Origin: Algoriphagus pacificus
GTDB lineage: Bacteria > Bacteroidota > Bacteroidia > Cytophagales > Cyclobacteriaceae
NCBI RefSeq assembly: GCF_017254845.1
Contig: NZ_JAFKCU010000002.1
Coordinates: forward strand, 1-64,000
Length of the DNA stretch: 64,000 bases
Direction: 5' to 3'
The notes below the pieces were generated by a model. That model saw only the letters and a program-made list of their open reading frames with translations, searched no databases and was not told the DNA's origin. Numbering within the stretch: the first letter of the stretch is position 1; every line of letters starts with the position of its first letter. The position numbers and the translations under genes are program-made. Positions 1,305-54,721 of the stretch are shown piece by piece.

Positions 1305-1567
1305 TTGGGTAGTGAGCTGTAGAATTTCCAAGTTTTGTAAAGTCATGAAAAAATTAGTCAAAAGAGTTATACCATATGTGGTTCTTTCTATAATAAAATA
1401 TTCAGAGTCTTCTAGATGTGATCGACGAAATTCTTAATTTGGTTTCATAATAGTTTTTACTCCTGTTGACAAAGTAGATAGATCCTTAATAGACTAGGTG
1501 GACTTTGGTAATACAGGTGCTATGCACAATACCGCTGGACAAATTAGCGCTAACGATTAAAGGTAAA
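1305..1567. other. Intergenic leader before the RES-domain gene
   Basis: AT-rich, with no convincing gene. Together with the terminator it separates the SusD gene from an accessory block. A 9-base match (GTGGAGCTG, 1266-1274) to the tmRNA 3' end lies just before it and could mark the outer edge of an island, but it is too short to be conclusive. Confidence 0.3.
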
Positions 1568-12489: not shown

Positions 12490-13779
12490 ATGAAATATCA
12501 GCCATTAACGCAAAGTTTATACATTAGAAATCGAGCAAAATTAGCTGCCAAATTGAAAGAAAACAGTGTGGCAATTTTCAACTCCAATGACATCATGCCT
12601 ACCAATGCCGATGGCACGATGAAGTTCAGACAAAACAACGATCTTTTTTACCTCTCTGGAATAGACCAGGAGGAGACAATCTTGCTGATCGCTCCTGACT
12701 GCCCAAATCCAGCCATGCGTGAAGTGTTGTTTCTTCGTGAGACAAGTGAGTTGATTGCGATCTGGGAAGGGCATAAGTATACCAAAGAGGAGGCCGAAGC
12801 AGCTTCAGGAATCAAAAACATCCAATGGCTTTCCAGCTTTGATCAAATCTTCAATACGGTGATGGCTCTTTCAGAAAGAGTTTATTTGAATACCAATGAG
12901 CACTTGAGAGCAGGAGTAGTCGTAGAGACTAGAGATGCCCGTTTTATCAAGCGTTGCAAAGAACAATTCCCGCTTCATGAATACGAACGCGCTGCTCCTC
13001 TCATGCATGAGCTTAGGGGAGTGAAAGAACAGGAAGAAATCAACCAGTTGCAGATAGCTTGTGATATTACCAATAAGGGATTCAGAAGAATTCTGTCTTT
13101 TGTGAAGCCTGGCGTAACTGAATATGAGATAGAGGCGGAATACCTTCATGAATTTGTAAGAAACAGAAGTAAAGGTTTTGCATACGAACCGATCATTGCT
13201 TCAGGAGGTAGCGCCTGTGTATTGCATTACTTGGAAAACAACAAAGAGTGTAAAGATGGAGAGTTGATCCTGATGGACGTAGGAGCGGAATATGGGAATT
13301 ATAATGCGGACATGACGCGGACCATTCCGGTGAACGGGAGATTTACGGCTAGGCAAAGAGCAGTTTATGATGCTGTGTTGCGGGTGAAAAACCAAGCGTC
13401 AAGCATGTTGGTGCCAGGTCAGAATATTCAGGATTACCATAAGGAAGTCGGCTTGATCATGCAAAGCGAATTGATAGGCTTGGGTTTGATAGACCAGACA
13501 GATGTGAAAAATCAGGATCCAAACTGGCCAGCCTACAAAAAGTATTTTATGCATGGGACTTCCCATCATTTGGGATTGGATGTGCATGATGTGGGTACGA
13601 TGCATGGACCAATCCAGCCGGGAATGGTCTTTACAGTAGAGCCTGGGATTTATATTCCTGCAGAAGGAATGGGTATCCGACTGGAAAATAACATTGTCGT
13701 ACAGGAAAGTGGCTATATCGATCTGATGGGAGATATTCCCGTGGAAGCTGAAGAAATCGAGGAATTGATGAATGCTTGA
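12490..13779 (+). CDS. pepP: Xaa-Pro aminopeptidase (M24 family)
   Basis: A 429-residue aminopeptidase P that removes N-terminal residues before proline. The N-terminal creatinase-like domain spans about residues 1-165 (FRQNNDLFYLSGI, EAIWEGHKYTKEEA-like segment). The C-terminal pita-bread domain carries the metal ligands: DVGAEYGNYNADMTRT (two Asp), MHGTSHHLGLDVHD (His), FTVEPGIYI (Glu) and IRLENNI (Glu). The start ATG is followed by KYQPLTQSLYIRNR. It stands alone, divergent from the M16 gene, with a strong terminator directly after it. Confidence 0.94.
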   Translation: MKYQPLTQSLYIRNRAKLAAKLKENSVAIFNSNDIMPTNADGTMKFRQNNDLFYLSGIDQEETILLIAPDCPNPAMREVLFLRETSELIAIWEGHKYTKEEAEAASGIKNIQWLSSFDQIFNTVMALSERVYLNTNEHLRAGVVVETRDARFIKRCKEQFPLHEYERAAPLMHELRGVKEQEEINQLQIACDITNKGFRRILSFVKPGVTEYEIEAEYLHEFVRNRSKGFAYEPIIASGGSACVLHYLENNKECKDGELILMDVGAEYGNYNADMTRTIPVNGRFTARQRAVYDAVLRVKNQASSMLVPGQNIQDYHKEVGLIMQSELIGLGLIDQTDVKNQDPNWPAYKKYFMHGTSHHLGLDVHDVGTMHGPIQPGMVFTVEPGIYIPAEGMGIRLENNIVVQESGYIDLMGDIPVEAEEIEELMNA

Positions 13780-13798
13780 TTTAGCAAAGGATAAAAAC

Positions 13799-13836
13799 AA
13801 AAATCCCCTCCAAAATCAATTGGAGGGGATTTTTTT
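13799..13836. terminator. Bidirectional terminator between pepP and tsf
   Basis: A 13-bp perfect stem (AAATCCCCTCCAA / TTGGAGGGGATTT), six-base loop, with A and T tracts at both ends. It serves the convergent pepP and tsf genes. Confidence 0.9.
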
Positions 13837-13857
13837 ATGATCTAAAATAGGGATGAA

Positions 13858-14688
13858 TTATCCGATAGATACTCTTTTGAAAGCAGAAACAGTCATTCCT
13901 TTGCTAACACCGTCAAGGTATTGAGCAATAGACTTAGAGTTGTCTTTTACAAATTGCTGGCTCAACAAAGTGTTTTCTTTGTAGAACTTGTTCAATTTGC
14001 CCAAAGCGATTTTTTCAAGCATTTCTTCAGGCTTACCTTCAGCTCTAGCTTGCTCTTTACCTACTTCGATTTCTCTTTCTACTACTGTAGAATCTACACC
14101 GTCTTTATCAACAGCAACTGGGTTCATAGCTGCAATCTGCATAGCTACGTCCTTACCAGCTTCTTCAACGTCTGCACCAGAAGTGTTAACCAATCCTACC
14201 AATACACCTAATTTACCATTAGAGTGGATGTAAGGAACTACAGTCTCAGCGTTGATCACTTCGTAATTAGAGATTTCGATTTTCTCACCGATTTTACCAG
14301 TCATCTCAACGATTTTCTCAGCAACAGTGATGTTTTCGAAAGGCAATGCATGGATTTCTTCTACTGAAGTAGCTCCAGCTGCAACAGCCATATCAAGAAG
14401 TGTATTTGCAAAAGCAACATACTCTTCGTTTTTGGCAACAAAGTCAGTTTCGCAAGTCAAAGAAAGTAAAGTTCCTTTTGCACCGTTGTCAGAAACGTTT
14501 GTTACAACTACTCCTTCTTTGGTTTCACGGTCAGCTCTGGAAGCAGATACTTTTTGACCTTTTTTTCTGAGGATGTCCACAGCTTTTTCAAAATCACCTT
14601 CAGCTTCAGTCAAAGCTTTTTTGCAATCCATCATACCGGCACCGGTCATTTGTCTCAGTTTGTTTACTTCTTGTGCAGTAATTGCCAT
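13858..14688 (-). CDS. tsf: Translation elongation factor Ts
   Basis: EF-Ts exchanges GDP for GTP on EF-Tu. The 276-residue protein begins MAITAQEVNKLRQMTGAGMMDCKKAL, the conserved N-terminal UBA-like module, followed by the DKREGVVVTN-type and CETDFVAKNEEY core motifs and a coiled C-terminal region. The length is normal. It is last in the rplM-rpsI-rpsB-tsf cluster; a hairpin lies between rpsB and tsf, so tsf may be partly separately expressed. Confidence 0.98.
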   Translation of the reverse strand: MAITAQEVNKLRQMTGAGMMDCKKALTEAEGDFEKAVDILRKKGQKVSASRADRETKEGVVVTNVSDNGAKGTLLSLTCETDFVAKNEEYVAFANTLLDMAVAAGATSVEEIHALPFENITVAEKIVEMTGKIGEKIEISNYEVINAETVVPYIHSNGKLGVLVGLVNTSGADVEEAGKDVAMQIAAMNPVAVDKDGVDSTVVEREIEVGKEQARAEGKPEEMLEKIALGKLNKFYKENTLLSQQFVKDNSKSIAQYLDGVSKGMTVSAFKRVSIG

Positions 14689-14802
14689 TGTGTTATCGGT
14701 TTAAATATTAAACGGGATATGTTCTTATGATAGGAGCCTGTTGATTAGGCTTTAAAATTTTTTCAAAAAACCGGAAGGCTATTGCCAAGGTCTTTTAAAC
14801 AA

Positions 14803-14841
14803 AAAAATTGAACATAGGCCGAAACCTGATGTTCAATTTTT
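14803..14841 (-). terminator. Hairpin terminator or attenuator between rpsB and tsf
   Basis: A 13-bp perfect stem (AAAAATTGAACAT / ATGTTCAATTTTT) with T tracts lies just after the rpsB stop. It probably reduces read-through into tsf. Confidence 0.8.
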
Positions 14842-14863
14842 AATATTTCAATTCAAGTGTGGA

Positions 14864-15625
14864 TTATTCTTTAGTTTCGGCGTCCACAGCTTTTTTAGCT
14901 TCTTCCTCTTCAGAAAGTTTAGCCTCATCTTTGTCCTTCTTTCTTTCGGAAAGACCTTCTTCGATAGCTGCACCAAACGCTTTCACTAGCAAGGATACGG
15001 ATTTGAAAGCATCGTCATTAGCTGGGATTGGGAAATCAACCTCATTTGGGTTAGAGTTCGTATCAACCAATGCGAAAACAGGGATACCAAGCTTCTTTGC
15101 TTCAGCAATCGCAATATGTTCTCTTTTGATGTCCACTACAAAAAGAGCTGCAGGAAGTCTGCTCAAATCAGCGATACCGCCAAGTACATCTTCCATTTTG
15201 TCTTTTTGACGGGAAACCATCAAACGCTCTTTCTTAGCTAAGTTAGTGTAAGCTTCTTCCTTCATCAATTTGTCCAATCCGGACATTTTTTTCAAGGACT
15301 TACGGATTGTAGCGAAGTTGGTCAACATACCACCTAACCATCTCTCGGTTACGTAAGGCATGTTTAGACGCTGAGCTTCTTGAGCTACAAGATCTTTAGC
15401 TTGTTTCTTAGTAGCTACGAACATTACTTTTTTGCCTGAGCGTACTACTTGCTTGATTGCGTTAGATGCTTCGTCGAGGCAAACAAGCGTTTTATTCAAA
15501 TCGATAATGTGGATACCATTTTTCTCCATGAAAATGTATGGAGCCATTCTTGGATCCCACTTTCTCGTCAAGTGTCCGAAGTGAACACCAGCATCTAGTA
15601 AGTCTTTATATTCTAATTTGGCCAT
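14864..15625 (-). CDS. rpsB: 30S ribosomal protein S2
   Basis: Ribosomal protein S2 of the small subunit. The 253-residue protein starts MAKLEYKDLLDAGVHFGHLTRKWDPRM and carries MLTNFATIRKSL, the ALFVVDIKREHIAIAEAKKLGIPVFALVDTNSNP block and IPANDDAFKSV. The C-terminus is a highly charged tail (EEGLSERKKDKDEAK), as in other Bacteroidota. It lies 33 bases after rpsI. Confidence 0.99.
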   Translation of the reverse strand: MAKLEYKDLLDAGVHFGHLTRKWDPRMAPYIFMEKNGIHIIDLNKTLVCLDEASNAIKQVVRSGKKVMFVATKKQAKDLVAQEAQRLNMPYVTERWLGGMLTNFATIRKSLKKMSGLDKLMKEEAYTNLAKKERLMVSRQKDKMEDVLGGIADLSRLPAALFVVDIKREHIAIAEAKKLGIPVFALVDTNSNPNEVDFPIPANDDAFKSVSLLVKAFGAAIEEGLSERKKDKDEAKLSEEEEAKKAVDAETKE

Positions 15626-44239: not shown

Positions 44240-44389
44240 GGGAATTTCTTTTGACTTCGATTTTTTTTGTTTGTTATAAAACTCCAAATTCTATAGGGTA
44301 ATAAAGCTTACTTGCCCTCGATCACTTTAAATTTCTACGCTTAATTAATTGATTTGACTGTAGCAAAATATGGTTTCTTTAATTATCTA

Positions 44390-44522
44390 TAACGGTTCTC
44401 AGCTATATGCAGGCAGGGATTCTAACCACTGAACAACTTAGAAAGAACTGACCTTTAAGTATAGCTCTTTCCTGTCCTACGAAGCACGAAACCCCTGCTT
44501 GCGTATAGGTGATGTTGGTGGC
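44390..44522 (-). repeat. attC-like site G (end of array)
   Basis: A long imperfect palindrome: 44403-44421 (CTATATGCAGGCAGGGATT) pairs with 44489-44508, and the outer AACGG (44391-44395) faces GATGTTGG. It lies just after the ABC ATPase gene on the minus strand. The shape, two short outer boxes with a paired stem and a variable centre of about 67 bases, is that of integron attC sites. Confidence 0.65.
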
Positions 44523-44530
44523 TGGTTTTC

Positions 44531-46537
44531 TCATTTCGTTATTCGTTTTAAAAGATAGTCAGTCTTGTTTTTCATTTCATAAATTATATGTTTTTCAAAC
44601 TTTTTTCTGTCGCTTTCAAGTTCACTATAAGTAGTCAATATGACCTGTGCATCATCTGATGAAATGTTTTCAATAACACTTACACAGTCAATAAGTGAAT
44701 CGTTGTCCAAATTCTGTTGTTTAGGTTCGTCAAGGATTAAAACATTTGGAAAGTTTATCGAGTCTAAATTTTTGAATTTTATTGAAGTTTGAAGAAGTGA
44801 TAAATAATAGCTCAATATGATTCTGATGTTATCGCTTGAACTTGAAATATTATAAATATCATAGTTGTCAAGATATGGAGTGTAATTGTCATTACCATCT
44901 ACTTTAATACTTCTAATTAAAGTCTGATTTCCTTTGAATAAACCTAGGCTTGTAACATTAGACTGTACATGATTTGTGATTGAATTTATGATAGCTTCAT
45001 CATTACTTGTTTGCTTATACTGCGATACTTCTTCGTTTAGTTTTTCTAATTCTATATTTGATATAGTGATGTCTCGTCTTAATGGTTTTAGGTCTTCCCA
45101 TCTTTGGGCAATTCTCGAATACTTCTCCATTTCTTTATGGGTGGAATCAGCATCTAAAATTCTTTTTCTTAATTCTGCAAATTCCTTGCCTGCAAAAGTT
45201 TTGGTTTGATGCTCAAGTTGACTTTCATACTCCTTAATCTTGTCGCTTATCACATTTCTTTGTTCAAGAATTTTTCTTCTGTCTAAAATTCTCTGTTTTA
45301 TTACTTTTTTAAAGGTGTTTTCTTCATCTTCTAGAAAGGCCAAATTTTGTTCAGGACTAGAAATTTTTTTCGATAATTCAGAATGACACAAAATACATTC
45401 ATCGTCTTGTTTCGTTTGCAATTTGGCTTCACAAACAGGGCAGGTTTTAATGTTTAAATCAGTAGAAAGCTCCTTAATTTTCTTAAGCTGCTTGTTCTTA
45501 TATTTGTTAGCACTAATTCTGTCTATATAGCTTTCATATCCTGATATTTCGATTGATATTTTCTCAACTTTTTCGGAAGCTTTTCTATATTGATAGTCTA
45601 ATGTTTTTAAACTGTCTCTTAATTTTTCATTGCTTTCTTCGTACTCCTTATTTTGACTAGAAAGCTGATTGATGAATTCAGATTCAGCATTATATTTTCC
45701 CTGTAAATATTTTATGTAATCATAAATGCTTGTCTTTCCAATTGAGTTTGTATTTACAATTGGGATGTCTTCAGATTTTTCTGCATTTGCGATTATTAAA
45801 AGGTTTTCTTCCTTTTGATATAATTCATCTTTAAACTTTTTAATTCTCGTTTCAAGTTCCCTTACCTTAATTACAGTTAGATGTAGATTAAATCTGTCAA
45901 GTCCAAAAACATATTCAAAGGCAACTTTCTTAACATCCTTAATATTGTATCTGGTAACTTGTCTTGCTTGAATTTGTGACCAACCGGCTCGCTGTTCTAC
46001 AAAGAACAAAGGCAAAATATTCTCAAAATAGAGTTTAGAAAGTTTATTATCATAAGTTGGTAATTCAACCTGTTTCAATCCAATAAAATTGAATAGAAAA
46101 TTTTGGAATCCGTTTTCTGAAAACACACCTTCACCCGATACGATTAGCTTGGTAACTTCTTCTGTCTTGAAAAACTCATCAGCGGAACAATATTTAACAG
46201 CTGCAAGGTGAAGTTCATCACCTTTGATGTAGCGAAATATTGTTACTGGTTCCTTTCCATTTGAAATTTCAAGAAGTAAATATGAAGTCCTGATATTTTT
46301 TCCATCGATTGAGTTGTAGAATTCAGGTTTGAATGGATTTTGAATTGTCTTAAAAATACCTAGTCCCTTTTCAGCTCCTAAGCCGTATATAATACCTGTG
46401 ATGATACTTGTTTTTCCAACTGAATTCGGGCCATAGATGATATTCAATCCATTTTTAAATGGAATAGTCGCCCCATACTTCATATCATCTTGGGTGATGA
46501 TAGTATATGTTAATTTATTTATTATCAGTTTCGACAT
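44531..46537 (-). CDS. SMC/Rad50-like ABC ATPase of an ABC-three-component (Lamassu-like) system
   Basis: A 668-residue ATPase with Walker A GPNSVGKTSIITG near residue 37, two long coiled coils, and a central zinc-binding hook with two CxxC pairs (CPVCEAKL and CILCHSEL, about 370-390). A signature-like SSSSDNIRIILSYYLSLL and Walker B NVLILDEPKQQNLD follow near 590-610. It is the third gene of a tight operon and overlaps the middle gene by 23 bases. Rad50/SMC-like ATPases with a middle component and a nuclease are typical of ABC-3C and Lamassu conflict systems, where the ATPase is thought to sense DNA ends or phage DNA and control the effector. Function here is inferred from architecture. Confidence 0.85.
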   Translation of the reverse strand: MSKLIINKLTYTIITQDDMKYGATIPFKNGLNIIYGPNSVGKTSIITGIIYGLGAEKGLGIFKTIQNPFKPEFYNSIDGKNIRTSYLLLEISNGKEPVTIFRYIKGDELHLAAVKYCSADEFFKTEEVTKLIVSGEGVFSENGFQNFLFNFIGLKQVELPTYDNKLSKLYFENILPLFFVEQRAGWSQIQARQVTRYNIKDVKKVAFEYVFGLDRFNLHLTVIKVRELETRIKKFKDELYQKEENLLIIANAEKSEDIPIVNTNSIGKTSIYDYIKYLQGKYNAESEFINQLSSQNKEYEESNEKLRDSLKTLDYQYRKASEKVEKISIEISGYESYIDRISANKYKNKQLKKIKELSTDLNIKTCPVCEAKLQTKQDDECILCHSELSKKISSPEQNLAFLEDEENTFKKVIKQRILDRRKILEQRNVISDKIKEYESQLEHQTKTFAGKEFAELRKRILDADSTHKEMEKYSRIAQRWEDLKPLRRDITISNIELEKLNEEVSQYKQTSNDEAIINSITNHVQSNVTSLGLFKGNQTLIRSIKVDGNDNYTPYLDNYDIYNISSSSDNIRIILSYYLSLLQTSIKFKNLDSINFPNVLILDEPKQQNLDNDSLIDCVSVIENISSDDAQVILTTYSELESDRKKFEKHIIYEMKNKTDYLLKRITK

Positions 46538-47120
46538 TCTGCTTCCAATATGAGTTTGGGATGACTTCTGTAATTATGTTTATGGCTCTATCCTCTACAA
46601 GACGACTTCCGAATAGATCCAAGAAATTAATTTCGTTAGGAAATACATCCTTTATTTTTTCATAAAATGCTTTACCTGTTTCTGTAATTTGAATTCTAAC
46701 ATTTTTTTCATTTTTATCGGCCTTGTATGTAATTAAGTCTCGAACGTATAGATATAAAAACATATCATTAAATCTAATATCCCATGGAACGCTTTTGTAT
46801 TGAACAATATTGAAATCAATTTCAACCTGTGATTTAGTTTTGAACTGATTTAGTTTGTTGAGCACATTCTTTTGGCCATTGAAGTATTCAACAATAAATT
46901 TTGCTTGAAATGCTTCATTGCGTAGCAAAAAGTCAAAACAAGCTATCACATTTTTGCTCAATCCATATTTATTATTAAGCATGCCGAGAATAATGAGGAT
47001 TCTTGTTGATCTAAATTGAATTCTGTCTTCAGGCTGTACATAGGTTGGTCTATCCAAATTTATATTTGGTTTAAGACCTTTTTCGGCAATTGACTTTACT
47101 AAATGATTAAACTGTTCCAT
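46515..47120 (-). CDS. Middle component of the ABC-three-component operon
   Basis: A 201-residue helical protein (FNHLVKSIAEKGLKPNINLDRP, QFRSTRILIILGMLNNKYGLS) with a winged-helix-like C-terminal part (LYVRDLITYKADKNEKNVRIQITETGKAFYEKI). It overlaps the nuclease gene by 14 bases and the ATPase gene by 23 bases, so all three are translationally coupled. Size, position and wHTH-like fold match the middle components described in ABC-3C systems; no catalytic motif is seen. Confidence 0.7.
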   Translation of the reverse strand: MEQFNHLVKSIAEKGLKPNINLDRPTYVQPEDRIQFRSTRILIILGMLNNKYGLSKNVIACFDFLLRNEAFQAKFIVEYFNGQKNVLNKLNQFKTKSQVEIDFNIVQYKSVPWDIRFNDMFLYLYVRDLITYKADKNEKNVRIQITETGKAFYEKIKDVFPNEINFLDLFGSRLVEDRAINIITEVIPNSYWKQNVETDNK

Positions 47121-48075
47121 TTTTTCTCCAATCTAATGGGCATTGAGCTGCCAATTCAAATACAACACCTTGTAATAATTTTTCCTTGTCACCTTTAAGT
47201 TCAAAATCTTTATAGAAAGTCAATATCTCTTTTTCTGCTTCGTTAAAAAAATCGTGAAAGAACCTATGTGGTGTGTATGTAGTATCAATATTGAAATTAT
47301 TAGTTAATCTGTCTGCCTTTAGTCTTAGATTACTTTCCCAATTTAATATGTTTGTCCTAAGGCTTGGGTTTAAATCATTTAAGCTATCAACATAAACCTT
47401 ATAATTAGCTCTTATTCTATGATATCTAATTCTGTGTTCATCATCTTCGCTTAAAATGGAATTCAATTTTTCATCTAGTGTTGTTTTTAGACTTGGGGTT
47501 TCATCAGGGGCTATGTCTGTGTCTTGAATTGAAATTATATCAGCAAATCGTAATGCTTCCTTTTTTTGTATCAGATTATTTATAATGGCTTTGATTCTCT
47601 TTATTTCAGTTTCCCTGTCAAATGGTATTTCGTAAGTGGGTTTGTCAAAAACCTTCTTGTAAACTTCTGTATCAAGTGCGAATAATTTTTCAATCTCTTT
47701 GTCGGGAGTCCAAAAATCAACAGGATATTTGAATTGTCTTATAACTTTAGATTGAATGTTATGGTCGATATTGCTTAAATCTCTGAGAGGTGAAAGAGCT
47801 ATAAAGGCTGTTGGATTATGGCTAGATGCTTCTAGTTGGAGTTGTTTATTAAAAATGTCCGCCCAATCTAGTTTAGCTGTTGTGTAGTACTTACACTCAA
47901 TAAAAAACTCTCTTTCTTGCTCGTCATCATCTAAAAATAGAACACTAATGTCAAAACCATTTTGGTCTCCGGAATCTTGTTTACGAACTTGTAAAATAAG
48001 AAAGCCCATTTCTTCAAATATGTTTTTGAAGAATGGTTTAACTAGTTTTTCAAAGTCACTTCCTGTTATTGCCAT
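47107..48075 (-). CDS. Restriction-endonuclease-fold effector of the ABC-three-component operon
   Basis: A 322-residue protein whose N-terminal 100 residues form a PD-(D/E)xK-type nuclease: an opening helix FEKLVKPFFKNIFEEMGF, catalytic Asp in NGFDISVLF near residue 38 and ECK (ExK) in EFFIECKYY near 55, then an AFIALSPL strand. The rest is helical and may bind the partner ATPase. It is the first gene of the operon, with an attC-like site upstream. The nuclease is the probable effector that would degrade DNA when the system is triggered. Confidence 0.78.
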   Translation of the reverse strand: MAITGSDFEKLVKPFFKNIFEEMGFLILQVRKQDSGDQNGFDISVLFLDDDEQEREFFIECKYYTTAKLDWADIFNKQLQLEASSHNPTAFIALSPLRDLSNIDHNIQSKVIRQFKYPVDFWTPDKEIEKLFALDTEVYKKVFDKPTYEIPFDRETEIKRIKAIINNLIQKKEALRFADIISIQDTDIAPDETPSLKTTLDEKLNSILSEDDEHRIRYHRIRANYKVYVDSLNDLNPSLRTNILNWESNLRLKADRLTNNFNIDTTYTPHRFFHDFFNEAEKEILTFYKDFELKGDKEKLLQGVVFELAAQCPLDWRKNGTV

Positions 48076-48124
48076 TTATTTTACGGTATGTTATTTGGTG
48101 TTCTGCTGTCTTTTACACTTTCCA

Positions 48125-48252
48125 CCAACGCTCAGCGCATGATCCGCAGCGCTTTATGAGCAGTATTCTATTTTTTATCTGATCAATCTTAAGAGCACAT
48201 TTCTATGGTCTAACGCTTTAACCGCTGGGGATTATGCACATTGTTGTTGGCC
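48125..48252 (-). repeat. attC-like site F
   Basis: Left arm 48135-48157 (GCGCATGATCCGCAGCG) pairs with right arm 48216-48239 (CGCTGGGGATTATGCAC), with outer CCAACG facing TTGTTGG. It lies between the nuclease gene and the next cassette. Confidence 0.65.
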
Positions 48253-48256
48253 GTGT

Positions 48257-48892
48257 TTATCTGTAGTTAATACCAAATTCTTTTTCCAACAATTGAATAA
48301 TTTCGCTGTATTGTCTTACTTCACTGACATTAGGATATTTTTCTGCATATATCCATGGTTCATGGAATGAATAATTCTCAATCCTTCCATCCTCTTTTAC
48401 ATCTAGATCATAACCTGAACCATCTGATACATGAATGACTTCATATCCTTTACCTATTACTGTAGTAACCTCTTTTCTTAATTTATCTTTGATTTCTTCC
48501 TGATTTGGAAGGTACATTATACCTAAGTCTTTTGAATCTTTCCAAAAGTCTTCCCAGCCAGAATTAGGTTTCAAATTAGCTATATCATAATTCTCAATTT
48601 TTGTGGTTACTTCTTCATTCTTATTCAGCTTCAATAAGTAATCATATCTTGATGCTACCCAGGAGTTTTTTTTCTTTCTTATCCACAAGACCGACCCGCC
48701 ATTTGTAAATCCTCTACCTAAAAATATTCTTAAGTCTATGTCATTATCACTGGTCTTCAATTTTGGGAGATTAAGCTGTTTTTCAAGTTTCCTGTTAGTG
48801 ACAAATTCCACTTCATCATCATTCTTCTGTGCAAATGCTGAAAATAGGGTGGCTATAATTAGTACATTAAACAATGATATCATCTTCTTCAT
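48257..48892 (-). CDS. Hypothetical secreted protein, cassette gene
   Basis: A 211-residue protein starting MKKMISLFNVLIIATLFSAFAQ (signal peptide); the mature part is acidic and alpha/beta with WIRKKKNSWVASRYDYLLKL and YEVIHVSDGSGYDLDV. No family was recognised. The frame could extend 42 codons upstream, but that part is the attC-like site E and has no protein character, so ATG 48892 is used. Confidence 0.7.
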   Translation of the reverse strand: MKKMISLFNVLIIATLFSAFAQKNDDEVEFVTNRKLEKQLNLPKLKTSDNDIDLRIFLGRGFTNGGSVLWIRKKKNSWVASRYDYLLKLNKNEEVTTKIENYDIANLKPNSGWEDFWKDSKDLGIMYLPNQEEIKDKLRKEVTTVIGKGYEVIHVSDGSGYDLDVKEDGRIENYSFHEPWIYAEKYPNVSEVRQYSEIIQLLEKEFGINYR

Positions 48893-49028
48893 GGCCAGCA
48901 ACGGGCTCTGGTATGAAACGTAGTGCATTTCGTAGCTGCGTACTCGGCCACCGAGATAAAGCTTATTAAGAAACCGAAACTTTCGGAAACTACTGTCCGC
49001 CCTATGTTTTATATCCAATGTTAAGCAA
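48893..49028 (-). repeat. attC-like site E
   Basis: Arm 48908-48926 (CTGGTATGAAACGTAGTGC) pairs with 48999-49017 (GCCCTATGTTTTATATCCA). On the minus strand the first box is GCTTAAC, a perfect RYYYAAC core, and it contains the TAA stop of the preceding gene. The other end is CAACGGG. Confidence 0.75.
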
Positions 49029-49968
49029 TGTTTTTTCTTATTTTATACGTGATTCCTTGTCCTGGTAGAATAGCTCGCACTTTTTCATAAACTCGTTTAC
49101 CATTATGATCTGTTCTGACTTTTAATGGACTCGAAAAAGAAGGTGTAACTTCAATCTTGTAGTCCGTTGGATAATTGAATTCAATATCAAGTCCTAAAAG
49201 AGGGTATTTGGAATTATGATTATCTAAAACTTCCCACTTTTGATATCTATTCTCAATAATGAGTGAGATGTTGACATGGCTATCTGGCTCAATAGGAAAA
49301 TTATATTCCTTATCAGATTTTTCTGAAAACCCGTCTTCATCATTCACATCGTGAATTAGAGATGAACCGTTTGAACACTTGAAACCAACAATTTTTATTT
49401 CAGTGTCGTTATCAGGCATAAAATTCAAGGTCATCGATTCTTGTGTTTTCTTACGAGTCTGATTGAATAATTCATAACTAATAGTCTGTGTGATTAGCAA
49501 TCCTTGATCTCCTTCCTTAATGTCATAAACCCATTTTGCATTTTTTCTAATTGATTCTCGATTAATTATATCAGTTTTTATCAGATCAAAGATTTCAGGA
49601 TCAACTAGTTTTTTAAAGATTTCATCGAATAGATTCTTGTTTATTCCTTCTTGAAGCTTTAAAATTCTATCTTGAAAAAGTAGATTTTCTTCATCTTCTA
49701 TTTTTTTTAGAATAAATACTGAAATGAACAATGAAATCGAAAGTGTGTAACCTGCATTTACCAAAAATCTAACTATGTGATAAGTCCATGAATACGAGTA
49801 GTACTCAATTGATTTCGACTCAGACTCAGTTATTACCGTTTGTTTATTTAAAACAGGAGTCATCTGATTAGATGAGTAGTCAGCTATTCCTGTGAGTATT
49901 ACTAATAGGATTACTATCCACAAGTAGTGTCTTTTCAGAAACTTTATATTGTTATTGGATTCGTTCAT
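49021..49968 (-). CDS. Two-helix membrane protein of unknown function, cassette gene
   Basis: A 315-residue protein with two transmembrane helices: one near residues 13-30 (YLWIVILLVILTGIADY) and one near 66-88 (FLVNAGYTLSISLFISVFIL). A loop of about 35 residues lies between them. A long C-terminal soluble part (about 90-315) is beta-rich (LLITQTISYEL, VNISLIIENRYQKWEV). No family recognised. Its TAA stop lies inside the core of attC-like site E, and site D lies just upstream of its ATG, a compact cassette layout. Membrane-anchored proteins of unknown role are frequent cassette cargo; a defence role cannot be claimed. Confidence 0.75.
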   Translation of the reverse strand: MNESNNNIKFLKRHYLWIVILLVILTGIADYSSNQMTPVLNKQTVITESESKSIEYYSYSWTYHIVRFLVNAGYTLSISLFISVFILKKIEDEENLLFQDRILKLQEGINKNLFDEIFKKLVDPEIFDLIKTDIINRESIRKNAKWVYDIKEGDQGLLITQTISYELFNQTRKKTQESMTLNFMPDNDTEIKIVGFKCSNGSSLIHDVNDEDGFSEKSDKEYNFPIEPDSHVNISLIIENRYQKWEVLDNHNSKYPLLGLDIEFNYPTDYKIEVTPSFSSPLKVRTDHNGKRVYEKVRAILPGQGITYKIRKNIA

Positions 49969-49985
49969 TGTTCGTTTTAAATTTT

Positions 49986-50052
49986 GCCTAACGGTTTGGC
50001 TATGCGCAGTGTCCCGAAGGGCATTGCGTATAGGTTTTTTTGTGCATAGTGT
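49986..50052 (-). repeat. attC-like site D
   Basis: Starts with GCCTAAC (49986-49992), the perfect complement of a GTTAGGC core, followed by a strong hairpin at 50000-50033 (CTATGCGCAGTG... with a GAA loop). Its hairpin differs from that of site B by one base. Confidence 0.8.
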
Positions 50053-50055
50053 TTT

Positions 50056-50814
50056 TTATTCTGGTTCCTTTTCTTGTATTGATTTAAAGATGTACATCAA
50101 GAATCGGTCAAGGTATTGTCTAATTGATAGAACATGGTTTATTGTTAGTTGCACTTCATGGTCTGCGCTAAAAATTGGAGAGTTAATCAGAGCGAAATGC
50201 TTGCGTTCATCTGGCGTATTGTCTCTGTTTTCAATCAGTTTCTGTTGGTTTCTGTCGGATAATTTTCCGTCAGAGTGAAGTAGAGTATGGCGTATTATCC
50301 TCAATTCAGAATATCTCATAAACGCTTCAGAGAATTCAGTATTTAAATCATTCGGTTTTTGAAGGTTCAAGTTTTCACCATCAGTTAGAAAATTTAGAAG
50401 GTTATCGTTAGTCCAAGCATTTCTAACCTTTTTATCTAATTCAGGATCTGACAATGTAGAATCGACAACAGTAAGGAAGTGACGATACAAATCTTCAAGG
50501 ACTGCATCAACTATTGAAACAGAAACGATTATATAGTTCCTAAAAACAACTTCCTGCACGGTAGTCATGTAAACCCTTGTCAAGTCTTCATTGCTGTACT
50601 GAACATCAATTTCATTGTCAAGTCTCAGTTGAGGTGGAATATTTGCTGTAGTAGATAATCCGTTTGTTGTCTCGAGCGTCCTATATCTGTCAGCAGCTAC
50701 ATGACAAGCATTTATTAGAAGCGCATTATCGCTATAGTTACTTACTATCTTAGCAAGTCCTAAACTGACAATTTCTATCCCTTTAGCTTTTTCTTGTTCG
50801 GTCATTTTTTTCAT
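50056..50814 (-). CDS. Cassette protein with HEPN-like R-x4-H motif
   Basis: A 252-residue, all-helical protein starting MKKMTEQEKAKGIEIV. A conserved-looking SELRIIRHTLLHSDGKL segment near residue 195 carries R-x4-H, the active-site pattern of HEPN RNases, and the helical neighbourhood fits that fold. It could be a HEPN-domain RNase or a structural HEPN protein; no partner antitoxin is seen. The frame extends 37 codons upstream into attC-like site C, so ATG 50814 is used. Confidence 0.6.
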   Translation of the reverse strand: MKKMTEQEKAKGIEIVSLGLAKIVSNYSDNALLINACHVAADRYRTLETTNGLSTTANIPPQLRLDNEIDVQYSNEDLTRVYMTTVQEVVFRNYIIVSVSIVDAVLEDLYRHFLTVVDSTLSDPELDKKVRNAWTNDNLLNFLTDGENLNLQKPNDLNTEFSEAFMRYSELRIIRHTLLHSDGKLSDRNQQKLIENRDNTPDERKHFALINSPIFSADHEVQLTINHVLSIRQYLDRFLMYIFKSIQEKEPE

Positions 50815-50817
50815 TAT

Positions 50818-50946
50818 GCACAACGGTTTGCATATGGCTTGTGGCGGTTTAGAAGCACTTTTCTGTCCACCGAAACTAAACTTGGCTACGGAGTAAAACC
50901 TTGCTGGCAGACATTCACCCGCCATAAGCTATATGCTTTGTTAGGC
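50818..50946 (-). repeat. attC-like site C
   Basis: The best-paired site. Arm 50830-50847 (GCATATGGCTTGTGGCGG) pairs with 50919-50936 (CCGCCATAAGCTATATGC). The right end is GTTAGGC (50940-50946), a canonical attC core; the left end is CACAACGG. Central loop about 70 bases. Confidence 0.82.
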
Positions 50947-50950
50947 ATTG

Positions 50951-51739
50951 TTATTTTTCCGCATTATACTTTAATATTTCGTCTTTCAGTCCAAGGTCGT
51001 ATTCGTAAGTTTCCAAAGTTATTGGGTTTATGTCCAATCTGTGAAAGTTCGGTAAATGTCCTTTGTCACAAAAAAGTTTTACCGTTTCCATAATCTCATT
51101 TGGGTCAGATTTTATTCCGAACACTACTTTTTTTATTTCATTAATATTAAGGACAACATCAATATTTTTTCCATCATTTACTTCATTGAATTTTTTAGAG
51201 TCAAAACCTTCTTTATGAATTACTAATCGAATTTCTTGTTCATATTCCCAAACATCAGATTTGTACGTCGCTAGGTAAAGAGGCAAATCATCACTTTCCA
51301 TATTTCTAGAATCTCTTTCCTTTCTTAAGGAACTGCAATAAGTGATTTCGATTGGTACTGGGTCTCCTCCTGCATAATTTTTTTGAGTTAGTTCAGGAAA
51401 TTCAATTTCAAAACACGCACCTTTATGAGAATTTCCATAATGTGACCACATTAATTTAGATGTTTTGTCAATATAAGATTTCGAAAAGCAAGTAATGTAG
51501 ATTTTACTACTGAGCCTTATAAATGCTTCATTTGCAATAGCTTTTACAACATCAGTATTCGATTTATCTTCTCTTACAATTTTAGACCATTCTGTAGGCA
51601 CTAAATATGGATTAGCTTCATAAGGGTCGTTAAATTGGTCTCCTCTTGTGAATCTTAATTTTTCGTGTTCAATTATTAAATTCAATGTTTCAATAGAACA
51701 AAATTTATATGCTGATCCTTTAAAAAATGGAATTCTCAT
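50951..51739 (-). CDS. DUF2971 protein, cassette gene
   Basis: A 262-residue protein with the DUF2971 pattern: KFCSIETLNLIIEHEKLRF, RGDQFNDPYEANP near residue 35, KLMWSHYGNSHKGACFEIEF near 95, and KSDVWEYEQEIRLVI near 160. Function unknown; the family is widespread and often found in mobile or cassette DNA. The gene is bounded by GTTAGGC 4 bases after its stop and by GCCTAAC 17 bases before its start, both attC-type cores. Confidence 0.85.
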   Translation of the reverse strand: MRIPFFKGSAYKFCSIETLNLIIEHEKLRFTRGDQFNDPYEANPYLVPTEWSKIVREDKSNTDVVKAIANEAFIRLSSKIYITCFSKSYIDKTSKLMWSHYGNSHKGACFEIEFPELTQKNYAGGDPVPIEITYCSSLRKERDSRNMESDDLPLYLATYKSDVWEYEQEIRLVIHKEGFDSKKFNEVNDGKNIDVVLNINEIKKVVFGIKSDPNEIMETVKLFCDKGHLPNFHRLDINPITLETYEYDLGLKDEILKYNAEK

Positions 51740-51756
51740 TGGTTGATTTTAATAAT

Positions 51757-51763
51757 GCCTAAC
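51757..51763 (-). repeat. attC half-site upstream of the DUF2971 gene
   Basis: GCCTAAC (GTTAGGC on the minus strand) followed by ACTTGTATAAGCGC. The expected second half was not found, so the site seems split or decayed. Confidence 0.55.
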
Positions 51764-52362
51764 ACTTGTATAAGCGCAATTATGTATATATCCTTTAAAG
51801 ACTTTAATTCTATTTTGACTTTAAATATTTGTTTATCAGTGTTTTAACATTAAATCTAGACGACAAATGACAACAAGCGTTTGTTGTCGTATCAATAGAG
51901 TTTATTGAAAAATGAAGTCTTTCAGATCTGATAACTAAACAAAACTTTAAGAACGGCATCAAAATCTTTAGATCCTATACCCAGTACAGGGTATTTTCTG
52001 TCTTCTCTTTCTTTTTCTGCGAGAGTTTTAACCAAAAAATTCTTTTCCAGCTATTGGAGTCTTGGGATATCGTGTATAAGATACCGAAACTTGATCTGGA
52101 GATTTATAATCATAAAAACTTTGTCCTTTCCCAAATATCTCGAATTAAAAATCCTACGGTCACGGTTCAGGATTGCATCCACGATAATAATCGGGACCTG
52201 AACAGCGGACCACTTTTTTCAGCCTTCTGACCTACCTCCGGTAGGCAGGATTCAGCTTTCTGACTCTCATTTTTAGACCGCTGGCTGACATTTGCTACAT
52301 CAAAGCAATGTGATTGTCAAAAGAATCAATATGGATGTCCACTTAGTCATTTTTCACATTGG
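51764..52362. other. Gene-free segment interrupting the cassette array
   Basis: About 600 bases with no gene. It has a hairpin near 51871-51890 (GACAACAAGC GTTTGTTGTC), a member of the dispersed repeat family at about 52051-52208, and a CCTACCTCCGGTAGG palindrome at 52231-52245. These repeats seem to have split the site between the DUF2971 gene and site B. Confidence 0.55.
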
Positions 52363-52437
52363 GCATAACAACTGTCTGGCTATGCGCAGTGTCCCGAAGG
52401 GCATTGCGCATAGGTGTTGTTGCCGTGTCGTTATATT
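52363..52437 (-). repeat. attC-like site B
   Basis: Outer box GCATAAC (52363-52369), a hairpin at 52380-52413 (CTATGCGCAGTG... GCGCATAG), and GTTGTTGCC at the other end. Its hairpin matches that of site D at all but one base. Confidence 0.78.
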
Positions 52438-53214
52438 TTATTCAACAGCAACAACTGACCAATCTTCATCAGGTGATTTATTAACATAAATCGTCCGTTC
52501 AATAAATTTTTTTTCTCCTTTTATAATCAGGTTAAAAGCAGCAGAACCATAAGTTCCATTTGAATCTGTAGTGCTCTGAATACTGCCGCTTGGTAGAATT
52601 GTATGTCCTTTGACTTCCCCAATTTCAGATTTCAATTCACTATTGTTTTTCAAATAGGCTTTTGTTGCCTCATATGCATCACTGTTTGGTATTATCACCA
52701 ACATTAAAACCTTAACAAATACGATAAAACCAATTAGCCAAAAACCAATATGGCTCCAGATATTTTTAAGATTTTTGTTCTTTCTTGTAGTTATGTCCTT
52801 TCTAAGAAATATTGCTAACGATACTAGCAGAAGAGTAAATCCAAGTGATTTACTTTCCCAAAAGAAGTACAGATCAACCATTCTAACAAGGTAACCGAAG
52901 ACTACTAAGCAGATTGAAACTCCAAATATCGCTTTAATCTTAGTGTCAAGTTCCGATAATAAGTCAATGTAATATTGCTCTATCGAGTTGCTACCATCTT
53001 TATTTACTATTTGGTTATGATCTCTTTTAATTATCAGTTTTCGTCCTTTTGTTAAGTATAGAATTGGGCCAATAATCGCAACCATGGAAATAATTATCCA
53101 AAGTCCTTTAGAACCATTGAAATCATTACTAATGATCTGAAAAATGGCAACAAAAGTTGTTAATAAGGAACCGAAACAGATAACGAAAAAAATTAAGCCT
53201 AAAGCTACTTCCAT
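52438..53214 (-). CDS. Multi-pass membrane protein with Coa1-like C-terminal domain, cassette gene
   Basis: A 258-residue protein with about five transmembrane helices in the first 190 residues (MEVALGLIFFVICFGSLLTTFVAIF start, then KGLWIIISMVAIIGPILYL and others). A small C-terminal soluble domain follows with NSELKSEIGEVKG, SGSIQSTTDSNGTYGSAAFNLII and WSVVAVE, which resembles the cytochrome oxidase assembly factor Coa1 type domain. ATG 53214 is chosen because a longer TTG start would lie in attC-like site A. Confidence 0.65.
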   Translation of the reverse strand: MEVALGLIFFVICFGSLLTTFVAIFQIISNDFNGSKGLWIIISMVAIIGPILYLTKGRKLIIKRDHNQIVNKDGSNSIEQYYIDLLSELDTKIKAIFGVSICLVVFGYLVRMVDLYFFWESKSLGFTLLLVSLAIFLRKDITTRKNKNLKNIWSHIGFWLIGFIVFVKVLMLVIIPNSDAYEATKAYLKNNSELKSEIGEVKGHTILPSGSIQSTTDSNGTYGSAAFNLIIKGEKKFIERTIYVNKSPDEDWSVVAVE

Positions 53215-53243
53215 ATTGTATCGTAAATTATCAAGGTTAATGC

Positions 53244-53383
53244 GCGTCAACGGTTACATGTATGAAACGTTGGGGATTGCGGGCTTCGTCACTTTCTGCC
53301 GTTGCAAAAGCTGATGCGGGGCAGATAACCTCAAGTAACCACTTAAACCCCAATGTTTTATACATGATGTTAGCAGTAGGCAT
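53244..53383 (-). repeat. attC-like site A
   Basis: Arm 53256-53275 (ACATGTATGAAACGTTGGGG) pairs with 53348-53370 (CCCCAATGTTTTATACATGATGT). The right end is TGTTAGCAGTAGGCA, the left end CAACGG. Central region about 72 bases. Confidence 0.75.
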
Positions 53384-53392
53384 TTGGTTCTC

Positions 53393-54382
53393 CTATTTTT
53401 TGTCGTCAAAGTAATCTATTTTCCCAATTTTCCCTTTTATGAAATCTAAGTGTTCAGCCTCTCCTTGTACCTTGTCGGCAGTTGTTGTCATCCCTATTCC
53501 TAAAGTGATTTGTTCTGCTTCAAGGTCGAATATAATTTTATTTACTGCTTCTTGTTGTTTATAGTATTGGTATGCAATTTCTTCAACTTCAGCTAGAGTA
53601 ATTTCGGAAATAATAAATCTATGGATTACCCTATTTCTGTCATCATATAATTTAAACAATTCATCATAAACTGTTTGGTCTATAATTCCTAAGTCAAGTG
53701 CTTTCTTGTAAATGTCCTTTTCTGATTTCTTTTTGTCAGTAAGCCCTTGATAAATCCATTCAATTTCAATGTCGCTATTTCCGTTAATCAGTTGGTTTTT
53801 TAAAATAATTCCGATTCGTAATAATGCATCAATCTGATTCGCTAATATGCAAGTTGCTTCAATAAATGCTTTATTCTTAACTGCTTTGCTTAGAATTAAA
53901 GCAGTTGCTCCAACTCCTTGTAAAAACATCTCAAACCGATATGAATTGATTGTCTCAATGCTTTTTCCAGTTTCAATTATTTTAAATTCTTTCATTATCG
54001 AATGAACTAACAGTACTTTATCTTCGATTGAACGACTGTCAAGTTCAGGATCGGTATTGTTTGGGTGAGTAAGAGTGAAGAATACTGCTTTGTCAGCATA
54101 TAATTTGGTCCAAGTCTTCGTTGTAAATTCTTTATCTCCACTGTCAGGGAGATAATAGAAGTCTTCATCTCCTATTTTTGTCGTGGGTAATGATTTCAGA
54201 AAACTCTCAAAGTTAGCTTTCTTTTCATCAGTGTCTAACTTATTTATAGAAAGTTGAAAAGCGTCAGATTTCCAAATTTCATACTCTTGAAATGTGTGAA
54301 CTTTTCCATCTTTTATCGAGTATCTCCAAGTTATTGGAACTTTGATTTCAAATGTGCCTTTTTCGTCAATAAATCGTCTCAT
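53393..54382 (-). CDS. Cassette protein with HEPN-like motif
   Basis: A 329-residue protein. The N-terminal part (about 1-125) is beta-rich and begins MRRFIDEKGTFEIKVPITW, resembling PsbP/MOG1-like folds. The C-terminal half is helical and contains LYDDRNRVIHRFIIS near residue 250, with R-x4-H as in HEPN domains. Possibly a two-domain HEPN-like protein; activity is unknown. An attC-type half-core (TGCTAAC, 54406-54412) lies just upstream of its ATG. Confidence 0.6.
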   Translation of the reverse strand: MRRFIDEKGTFEIKVPITWRYSIKDGKVHTFQEYEIWKSDAFQLSINKLDTDEKKANFESFLKSLPTTKIGDEDFYYLPDSGDKEFTTKTWTKLYADKAVFFTLTHPNNTDPELDSRSIEDKVLLVHSIMKEFKIIETGKSIETINSYRFEMFLQGVGATALILSKAVKNKAFIEATCILANQIDALLRIGIILKNQLINGNSDIEIEWIYQGLTDKKKSEKDIYKKALDLGIIDQTVYDELFKLYDDRNRVIHRFIISEITLAEVEEIAYQYYKQQEAVNKIIFDLEAEQITLGIGMTTTADKVQGEAEHLDFIKGKIGKIDYFDDKK

Positions 54383-54405
54383 ATTTTTCTTTTTTTTATG
54401 CTTAC

Positions 54406-54412
54406 TGCTAAC
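54406..54412 (-). repeat. attC half-core at the right end of the array
   Basis: TGCTAAC followed by ACC, the same core phrase as in site A (TGTTAGCAGTA/GGCA versus TGTTAGCAGTAAGCA on the minus strand). No paired second half is found before the next ORF, so this marks a decayed end. Confidence 0.45.
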
Positions 54413-54425
54413 ACCTCACTAAACC

Positions 54426-54611
54426 TTAGTATTCCGAGTCTATAGCGTTTATATCGCTTTTATCCACAGGTGTATCAGGTGATGTAGAAACCAAATTAAG
54501 AATTTCGTCGATCCCATTAACTTGAATTGAAAATATTTTTAAAACCTCACCGCTGTCCTGAAAGCTATTGTTGAGATTGAACATTAGGTCTCCAAAATCA
54601 AGTATTAACAT
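54426..54611 (-). pseudogene. Short truncated ORF at the array edge
   Basis: A 61-residue frame from ATG 54611 (MLILDFGDLMFNLNNSF) with an acidic tail. The frame stays open upstream to about 54680 with protein-like sequence (EDAGPWNALERFNQITH) but no good start, so it looks like the C-terminal remnant of a larger cassette gene. No family recognised. Confidence 0.4.
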
Positions 54612-54721
54612 GTGCGTTATTTGGTTAAATCTTTCCAAAGCATTCCAAGGTCCAGCATCTTCGGATTTGCCTTTTCACAACAGACAGTTATTAGGAAAGA
54701 ATTGAGTGGAAAATTGTCTTT

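Follow-up and report, generated by a model that had tools for sequence, protein, structure and literature searches.

A cassette array of Algoriphagus pacificus and its probable origin in an integron-type system with an I2-less integrase

Introduction

Here, we describe a gene array in Algoriphagus pacificus, located in a window of 64,000 nt (the whole stretch of DNA analysed; NZ_JAFKCU010000002.1, positions 1-64,000, from a genome of 5.28 Mb). The closest described systems are the integrons and the clusters of attC sites lacking an integrase (CALINs). A canonical integron has an integrase and an attI site at the head of an array that runs one way, and its cassettes end in a hairpin with a GTT core. 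In the free circle of an integron cassette, the R'' box near its end and its first bases come together, and the two are therefore complementary. A CALIN comprises at least two attC sites with no integron integrase nearby.

According to PMC7790495, integrases are held to have gained recombination of single strands by acquiring the I2 helix; the same source states that direct proof of this role is lacking because deletion of I2 kills IntI1. Strand choice at canonical attC sites is described as set chiefly by an extrahelical base (PMC2727003). Surveys identify IntI by its specific domain (PMC9668308, PMC2426708) and would pass over integrases without I2. Integrons have been reported from Bacteroidota (PMC8618304, PMC9668308), and the report on IntegronFinder 2.0 gives one complete integron of the Bacteroidetes, in Salinibacter ruber, in addition to integrases without cassettes found earlier (PMC9024848). 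In a search of the open-access literature, with subscription papers and preprints outside its range, we found no recognisable paper on Bacteroidia integrons of the kind described below among the matches listed.

Results

The window very probably contains a cassette array of an integron-type system that is spread throughout the Bacteroidia, employs an integrase without I2, and would act on the bottom strand as set out in the Discussion; the integrase of this array appears to have been deleted. A run of minus-strand genes extends from 54410 down to 44387 and is split by seven AAC...GTT hairpins, termed A to G. A sequence-only reading of the window had proposed an integron-like, CALIN-like array that lacks an integrase. 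The array is indeed of integron type and has no intact integrase; what that reading missed is that a tail of the integrase and its attI remain, both belonging to the I2-less family. The seven palindromes had been counted and located correctly (44387-53375, minus strand), and all of them lie between co-directional minus-strand genes. As to the proposed RYYYAAC/GTTRRRY cores, AAC and GTT are present, but the strict form GTTRRRY occurs in only two of nine GTT starts.

Of the 49 bases in the seven R'' boxes of the window, 37 match the start of their own cassette and 16 match the next start; 3 of 181,440 permutations reach 37. This count includes a shift of the R'' box of site D by one base, made after the first result; in the first register there were 30 matches, reached by 78 of the 181,440 permutations, and D scored 0 of 7. 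The scores out of seven are now 7 for G, 4 for F, 7 for E, 7 for D (R'' = GCACAAA), 5 for C, 2 for B and 5 for A. At 21 other loci with an integrase of the family, 47 cassettes between successive model matches agree with their own start at 6.36 of 7 bases and with the next at 2.85 of 7, a result not reached in 20,000 shuffles; the own start is the better one in 43 cassettes, equal in 3 and worse in 1. The complementarity extends to about base 14 and is interrupted by a constant non-match at base 11 in 44 of 47 cassettes (A against G in 31), and the same A/G non-match is found in five of the seven window cassettes. The IntI control, nine stretches read on both strands, is noisy: 27 of 125 hairpin pairs match their own start and 27 of 125 the next. 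Long own-start complementarity as such was considered as a novelty and rejected, since clear cases stand beside canonical IntI (L117, L122; L, G and C denote our own numbering of loci, genomes and contigs).

The integrase remnant comprises approximately the last 37 codons of the gene (54411-54521, minus strand). Its open reading frame (ORF) covers 54426-54638, with a tail that matches the C-terminus of a tyrosine recombinase. The tblastn subject is the C-terminal piece of a broken copy (G000:C23:910.8-912.0 kb; 78% over 37 aa, E 3.8e-14; 90% DNA identity over 111 nt). This copy is itself interrupted by a stop, and the copies of the integrase family found in the genome of the window are broken. 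The window and the G000:C23 copy are alike in DNA up to and including ...GAGGTGTT, after which they diverge. At this attI-like site (54400-54425, minus strand; GTT at 54412-54410), similarity to the relatives ends and the first cassette starts, so that the array begins near 54410, right behind the site and the integrase tail, and not at 53383 as had been supposed; likewise, the statement that the window holds no integrase is true of an intact one only, given the tail at 54521-54411. Judged from these sequence breaks, the GTT behind the remnant is the crossover expected of an attI. The same pattern recurs in the relatives: in 13 of 13 aligned loci of Flavobacteriaceae the sequence after the integrase is conserved up to a stretch with TATACA and GTT, beyond which 12 of the 13 continue with different sequence and one contig ends. 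Two integrases on one contig of Galbibacter are 96% alike over 2.26 kb up to the attI GTT, and unrelated after it.

Several further traces of such integrases were observed. Another decayed tail of the I2-less family lies at window position 1390-1510 (plus strand) and shares 31 nt at 97% with the 54.5-kb remnant; integrase tails seem to be scattered across this genome. A further one, with the attI-like sequence TTTATACAAGTGTTGTGC and an ORF behind it, lies near 921.3 kb of G000:C23 (L040, 3766-3864). At 909-912 kb of the same contig (L039, L001), another tyrosine recombinase is located behind the broken integrase, near its attI point, followed by an ORF that we take to resemble an IS91-type transposase. 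Upstream of the integrase start, GACAACAAACG repeats spaced by about 11 nt are found in 7 of 10 loci shown (L042, L043, L044, L045, L057, L090, L001), and repeats of this type also occur at about 51890 (minus strand) of the window. They are possibly binding sites.

In the 35 model sites, 86.2% of 819 cells are paired, vs 62.3% after shuffling and 33.5-39.3% when slid. Two-sided changes occur at 20 of 24 pairs, and the arms show little sequence conservation. Family-wide pairing and own-cassette complementarity together place the sites above chance, and they display the architecture of attC, i.e., R''/R' cores with AAC/GTT and an L stem. Taken singly, the bottom-strand folds of A to G are only moderately unusual (z-scores -2.4, -1.8, -1.2, -2.5, -1.2, -5.5 and -2.5). 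The sites cluster, as A, C, D, E, F and G are among 15 matches (E up to 0.5) of the covariance model across all 5.28 Mb of the genome; the 50-source search recovered A, B, C, D, E and G. Sites A and G were themselves seeds of the model that found them again. A search of Rfam returned only one weak, irrelevant match.

Intact relatives of the remnant, 383-398 aa long, occur in genomes of the same genus, one of them being that of Algoriphagus sp. PAP.12 (L055, 10001-11197). We collected 48 loci from Algoriphagus, Cyclobacterium, Galbibacter, Tamlana, Polaribacter, Saprospiraceae and others; over the best segment, L055-L092 reach a match of at least 51%. In Algoriphagus, Cyclobacterium, Galbibacter and others, intact members head arrays of this kind. 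The residues R, H, R, H and Y, presumably the catalytic ones, are invariant in 22 of 22 members. The two catalytic boxes are 73-78 residues apart in all 33 family rows vs 115 in all nine of IntI, and the IntI insertion of about 40 residues (I2), i.e., the IntI-specific domain, is missing from all 33. IntI1 of an E. coli plasmid (L115) was left aside, as the stretch covered contains no full reading frame of it, and so was locus L041. This is in line with the profile searches, where the IntI profile TIGR02249 is the best or second NCBIfam match of seven out of seven members, but stays below the cut-off and aligns in two pieces that leave out its middle. Two of the seven (L050, L053) pass NF040815, a profile of XerA type that also has integron integrase in its title. 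The IntI4 structure 2a3v also aligns in two pieces, and the best structure match is the XerC-like 4a8e. The integrase of L042 scores 210 bits with the IntI profile vs 175 with XerC; a XerD reaches 128 with IntI. The tree separates Xer from a group (98/98) that unites IntI (100/100), the Bacteroidia family (68/29) and two IS91-associated recombinases.

The N-terminal extension of these integrases has weak similarity to HARP or DUF5710 in L050, L051, L054, L113 and L053 (E 0.0008-0.13, below the cut-offs), and the motif seems to be doubled in the longer integrases. A related integrase on a Chryseobacterium plasmid (NZ_CP041688.1, L113) is annotated as integron integrase and has co-directional genes behind it.

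Sites and integrases were found to be associated in position. Model R1 was built from 12 sites, and R2 was used for the later 50-source search. With R1, at least 136 sites were obtained, 90 of which belong to 26 genomes that also have an integrase match. Within 12 kb downstream and on the same strand lie 31 sites, where 0.17 are expected; one is downstream on the opposite strand and three are upstream on the opposite strand. R1 sites adjoin 14 of 41 integrase matches; for 10 of the 14, the genome had contributed no seed. At the 48 loci, all 29 matches with E up to 1 share the strand of the integrase, 28 of them downstream, with 7 of the 29 in L058-L060 on the same contigs as seed-bearing loci. 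The search with R2 placed 97 of 99 matches on the integrase strand, the remaining two being mirrors of such matches; a few lie upstream of the integrase (L039, L083, L086). Nine control loci with distant tyrosine recombinases gave no sites in either site search. Class-wide, at least 150 sites were obtained; 44 share a contig with an integrase match, namely 32 downstream on the same strand, none downstream on the opposite strand, six upstream opposite, one upstream on the same strand and five more than 40 kb off. The genes conform to this direction: within 5 kb downstream of the integrases, 106 ORFs of at least 100 aa are on the same strand and 13 on the opposite one (44 loci including the window). 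Thus, the arrays mostly read away from the integrase, with the attI-like site at its 3' end.

A divergent layout as in canonical integrons, with arrays that read away from an integrase on the opposite strand, was observed in G414:C7, G382:C9, G437:C1 and G064:C2. In L043 (about 13100-15000), a group II intron lies directly behind an attC-like site.

In a sample of the class, the site search (E 0.01, at most 17 candidates scored per genome) is positive in 155 of 197 genomes, belonging to 99 of 118 genera. The integrase search at E 1e-50, which admits IS91-type relatives too, is positive in 111 of 197 genomes. The sequence-only reading had suspected a divergent Bacteroidota type. The system, widespread in the class, has its own integrase family without I2; most of its model sites show no extrahelical base, and many carry A.C mismatches at fixed places instead. 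Beyond the spacer base, the R''-L'' arm has no further unpaired base in 25 of the 35 model sites and one or two in the other 10, although the model itself started from a stem without bulges. At one opposed pair, 33 of 35 sites have A.C, which is a mismatch on the top strand and a G.T wobble on the bottom strand. In a model-free scan of loci without seeds, 42 of 64 sites carry A.C at the 15th base behind AAC and 24 of 64 at the 10th, with totals of 105 A.C and 45 G.T; in shuffled sequence no place exceeded 2 of 19, and in the stretches next to IntI none exceeded 2 of 5 and 1 of 7. The bottom strand is predicted to fold better in 29 of 35 sites.

Possible traces of cassette movement were found in the relatives. 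In Algoriphagus aestuariicola (L057), an 845-bp cassette occurs twice in one array, identical and behind different sites, with similarity from CCGTT to CCGTTAG. Another cassette, presumably of ArsR type, occurs at differing places in two Algoriphagus arrays (83%) and in Galbibacter (77-80%). The flanking genes of the window array that we tried are not syntenic: the right-hand gene occurs in 2 of 60 genomes of the genus, its own included, and the left-hand gene in 18 of 60, partly in several copies. The one relative compared in sequence shares that single right-hand flank gene and one distant match.

Sites and cassettes of the window array

All features of the array are on the minus strand and are given in the direction of reading. 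The gene of cassette 1 (53393-54382, 329 aa) has no match in Pfam or PADLOC. It is followed by site G (53245-53375, a model seed, 79.1 bits) and the gene of cassette 2 (52438-53250, 270 aa), the ORF start of which overlaps site G and which resembles PLDc_N weakly, below the cut-off. Site F (52366-52425, 27.2 bits in the whole genome) is of a short type. Segment 3 (51761-52369) has no listed minus-strand ORF of 60 aa and ends in a second attI-like sequence (about 51779-51761), which resembles the attI region of L082 (80% over 50 nt). A dispersed repeat of about 65-145 nt, 72-85% alike, was observed at about 34060, 40573, 43118, 52085 and 57651 of the window, one copy lying inside segment 3.

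Cassette 4 (gene at 50951-51739) encodes a DUF2971 protein of the candidate defence family PDC-S31 and is followed by site E (50818-50946, 51.0 bits). The gene of cassette 5 (50056-50814) starts with the ATG at 50814, the listed ORF from 50925 running through site E; its product has no match in the Pfam and PADLOC searches. Site D (49986-50045, 27.1 bits) is again short. Neither cassette 6 (gene at 49021-49968, 315 aa) nor cassette 7 (48257-48892, 211 aa from the ATG at 48892) matches Pfam or PADLOC; they are separated by site C (48896-49026, 27.7 bits). Site B (48123-48249, 23.4 bits, E 0.027), the most degenerate one, precedes cassette 8 (genes at 44531-48075), and site A (44387-44520, a model seed, 93.7 bits) ends the array. 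With about 3.7 kb, cassette 8 holds an operon of three overlapping genes, coding for an Mrr-like nuclease, an LmuC-like protein and an LmuB-like ATPase. By its matches to LmuB (E 1.7e-65) and LmuC (E 5.4e-11) in PADLOC it is a Lamassu-like defence operon; the Mrr-like effector is weak (Mrr_cat in Pfam, 8.8e-4, just under the cut-off).

Discussion

The arrays described here share with canonical integrons the GTT core, the hairpin at the cassette end, the own-start complementarity, the integrase and attI at the head and the one-way order. They differ in an integrase with an N-terminal extension and no IntI insertion, in an attI at the 3' end of the integrase gene, in the fixed A.C mismatches and in the lack of extrahelical bases at most model sites. 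The window resembles a CALIN in that its array, of seven sites scored with our own covariance model, has no intact integrase; it differs in retaining an integrase tail and attI of another integrase family. In the integrons of Treponema, as described in PMC3607928, the integrase is transcribed towards attI and in cassette direction as well; there it is called intI, and the two are likened by description only. The tyrosine recombinases paired with IS91-type transposases also lack I2 (two of two rows) and group with IntI, but are followed by an IS91-type transposase in both cases seen. XerC, XerD and XerA have the catalytic boxes with a similar spacing (80-81 residues in three Xer rows) and share with the family the profile passed by two of its seven members; they are separate in the tree, and distant tyrosine recombinases had no sites in nine loci.

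The mechanism that we propose would work as follows. The integrase would recombine double-stranded attI, cut between G and TT, with the folded bottom strand of an attC-like site of a circular cassette, and cassettes would be inserted behind attI in one orientation. The strand would be chosen by G.T wobbles, which form on the bottom strand only, and not by extrahelical bases docked by I2. Perhaps the N-terminal extension of the integrase does part of the work of I2. In the window array, deletion of the integrase down to its tail would have left the CALIN-like remnant.

Several observations weigh against this reading. The inner wobble was first noticed in an alignment chosen by a model that favours those letters; the later scan is independent of the model. 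Within the alignment columns counted as paired, G.T is more frequent on the top strand than on the bottom strand (52 vs 25); a single closing pair accounts for 20 of the 52, and the four column pairs that had initially been taken as loop give 0 vs 45. In an energy-ranked scan of the window, unrelated stretches score as high as the attC-like sites, and because such stretches are among the best, the energy-only hairpin scan was dropped as proof of sites. Site B does not fit the own-start complementarity, and both B and segment 3 are degenerate. The attC-like site of the ArsR-type cassette differs between the three genomes, which counts against a simple transfer of intact cassettes, as gene and site should travel together. 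The unity of the integrase family in the tree is weak, the nearest rows to IntI are the IS91-associated recombinases (91/84) and not the Bacteroidia family, and the tree has a midpoint root only, with several long branches flagged. Finally, 27 of the 41 integrase matches have no R1 site within 12 kb downstream, and 106 of the at least 150 class-wide sites are on contigs without an integrase match, in part, we suppose, due to draft assembly. The latter number would also be expected if the integrase gene were a mere passenger near arrays mobilised by another enzyme. With the integrase at the head of the arrays, its attI at its own 3' end breaking at GTT, and the arrays polarised away from it, we consider this highly improbable.

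A true IntI that placed or left ordinary attC cassettes, as in a canonical CALIN, would account for the GTT/AAC cores, the hairpins and the co-directional genes; of the 296 genomes from the phylum, 85 have an IntI above the cut-off, and the two loci beside IntI named above have cassettes with similar own-start complementarity. However, the profile search found no IntI over the cut-off in the genome of the window, and G094 is the only such genome in its class. Since the attI remnant at 54410 also belongs to the I2-less family and A.C mismatches sit at fixed places, we regard this origin as quite unlikely. Somewhat less doubtful, though still unlikely, is a Xer-like enzyme that recombines the sites as double-stranded or cruciform palindromes without a single-strand step: the sites are long palindromes, and the enzyme lacks the I2 which is held to enable single-strand recombination (PMC7790495). 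Such an enzyme would leave unexplained why mismatches that mark the strand occur at fixed places, why the bottom strand is predicted to be the more stable one at most model sites, and why the arms covary with little conservation of sequence. There is hardly any chance that the hairpins are palindromic repeats between genes (REP-like elements or terminators) that take no part in moving genes. They follow stop codons, and their single folds are only moderately unusual; the complementarity to the own start, the exactly duplicated cassette and the breaks at attI speak against it.

We think it somewhat probable that the Bacteroidia hold a large, uncharted lineage of integrons that recombines single-stranded folded sites, with an integrase that never had I2 and a strand choice by G.T wobbles. 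If true, recombination of hairpins predates I2 or arose without it. A natural family that groups with IntI, lacks I2 and heads attC-like arrays would allow a direct test of the I2 account. Given sites in 155 of the 197 sampled genomes, the system may moreover be a large reservoir of cassettes, including defence genes as in the window.

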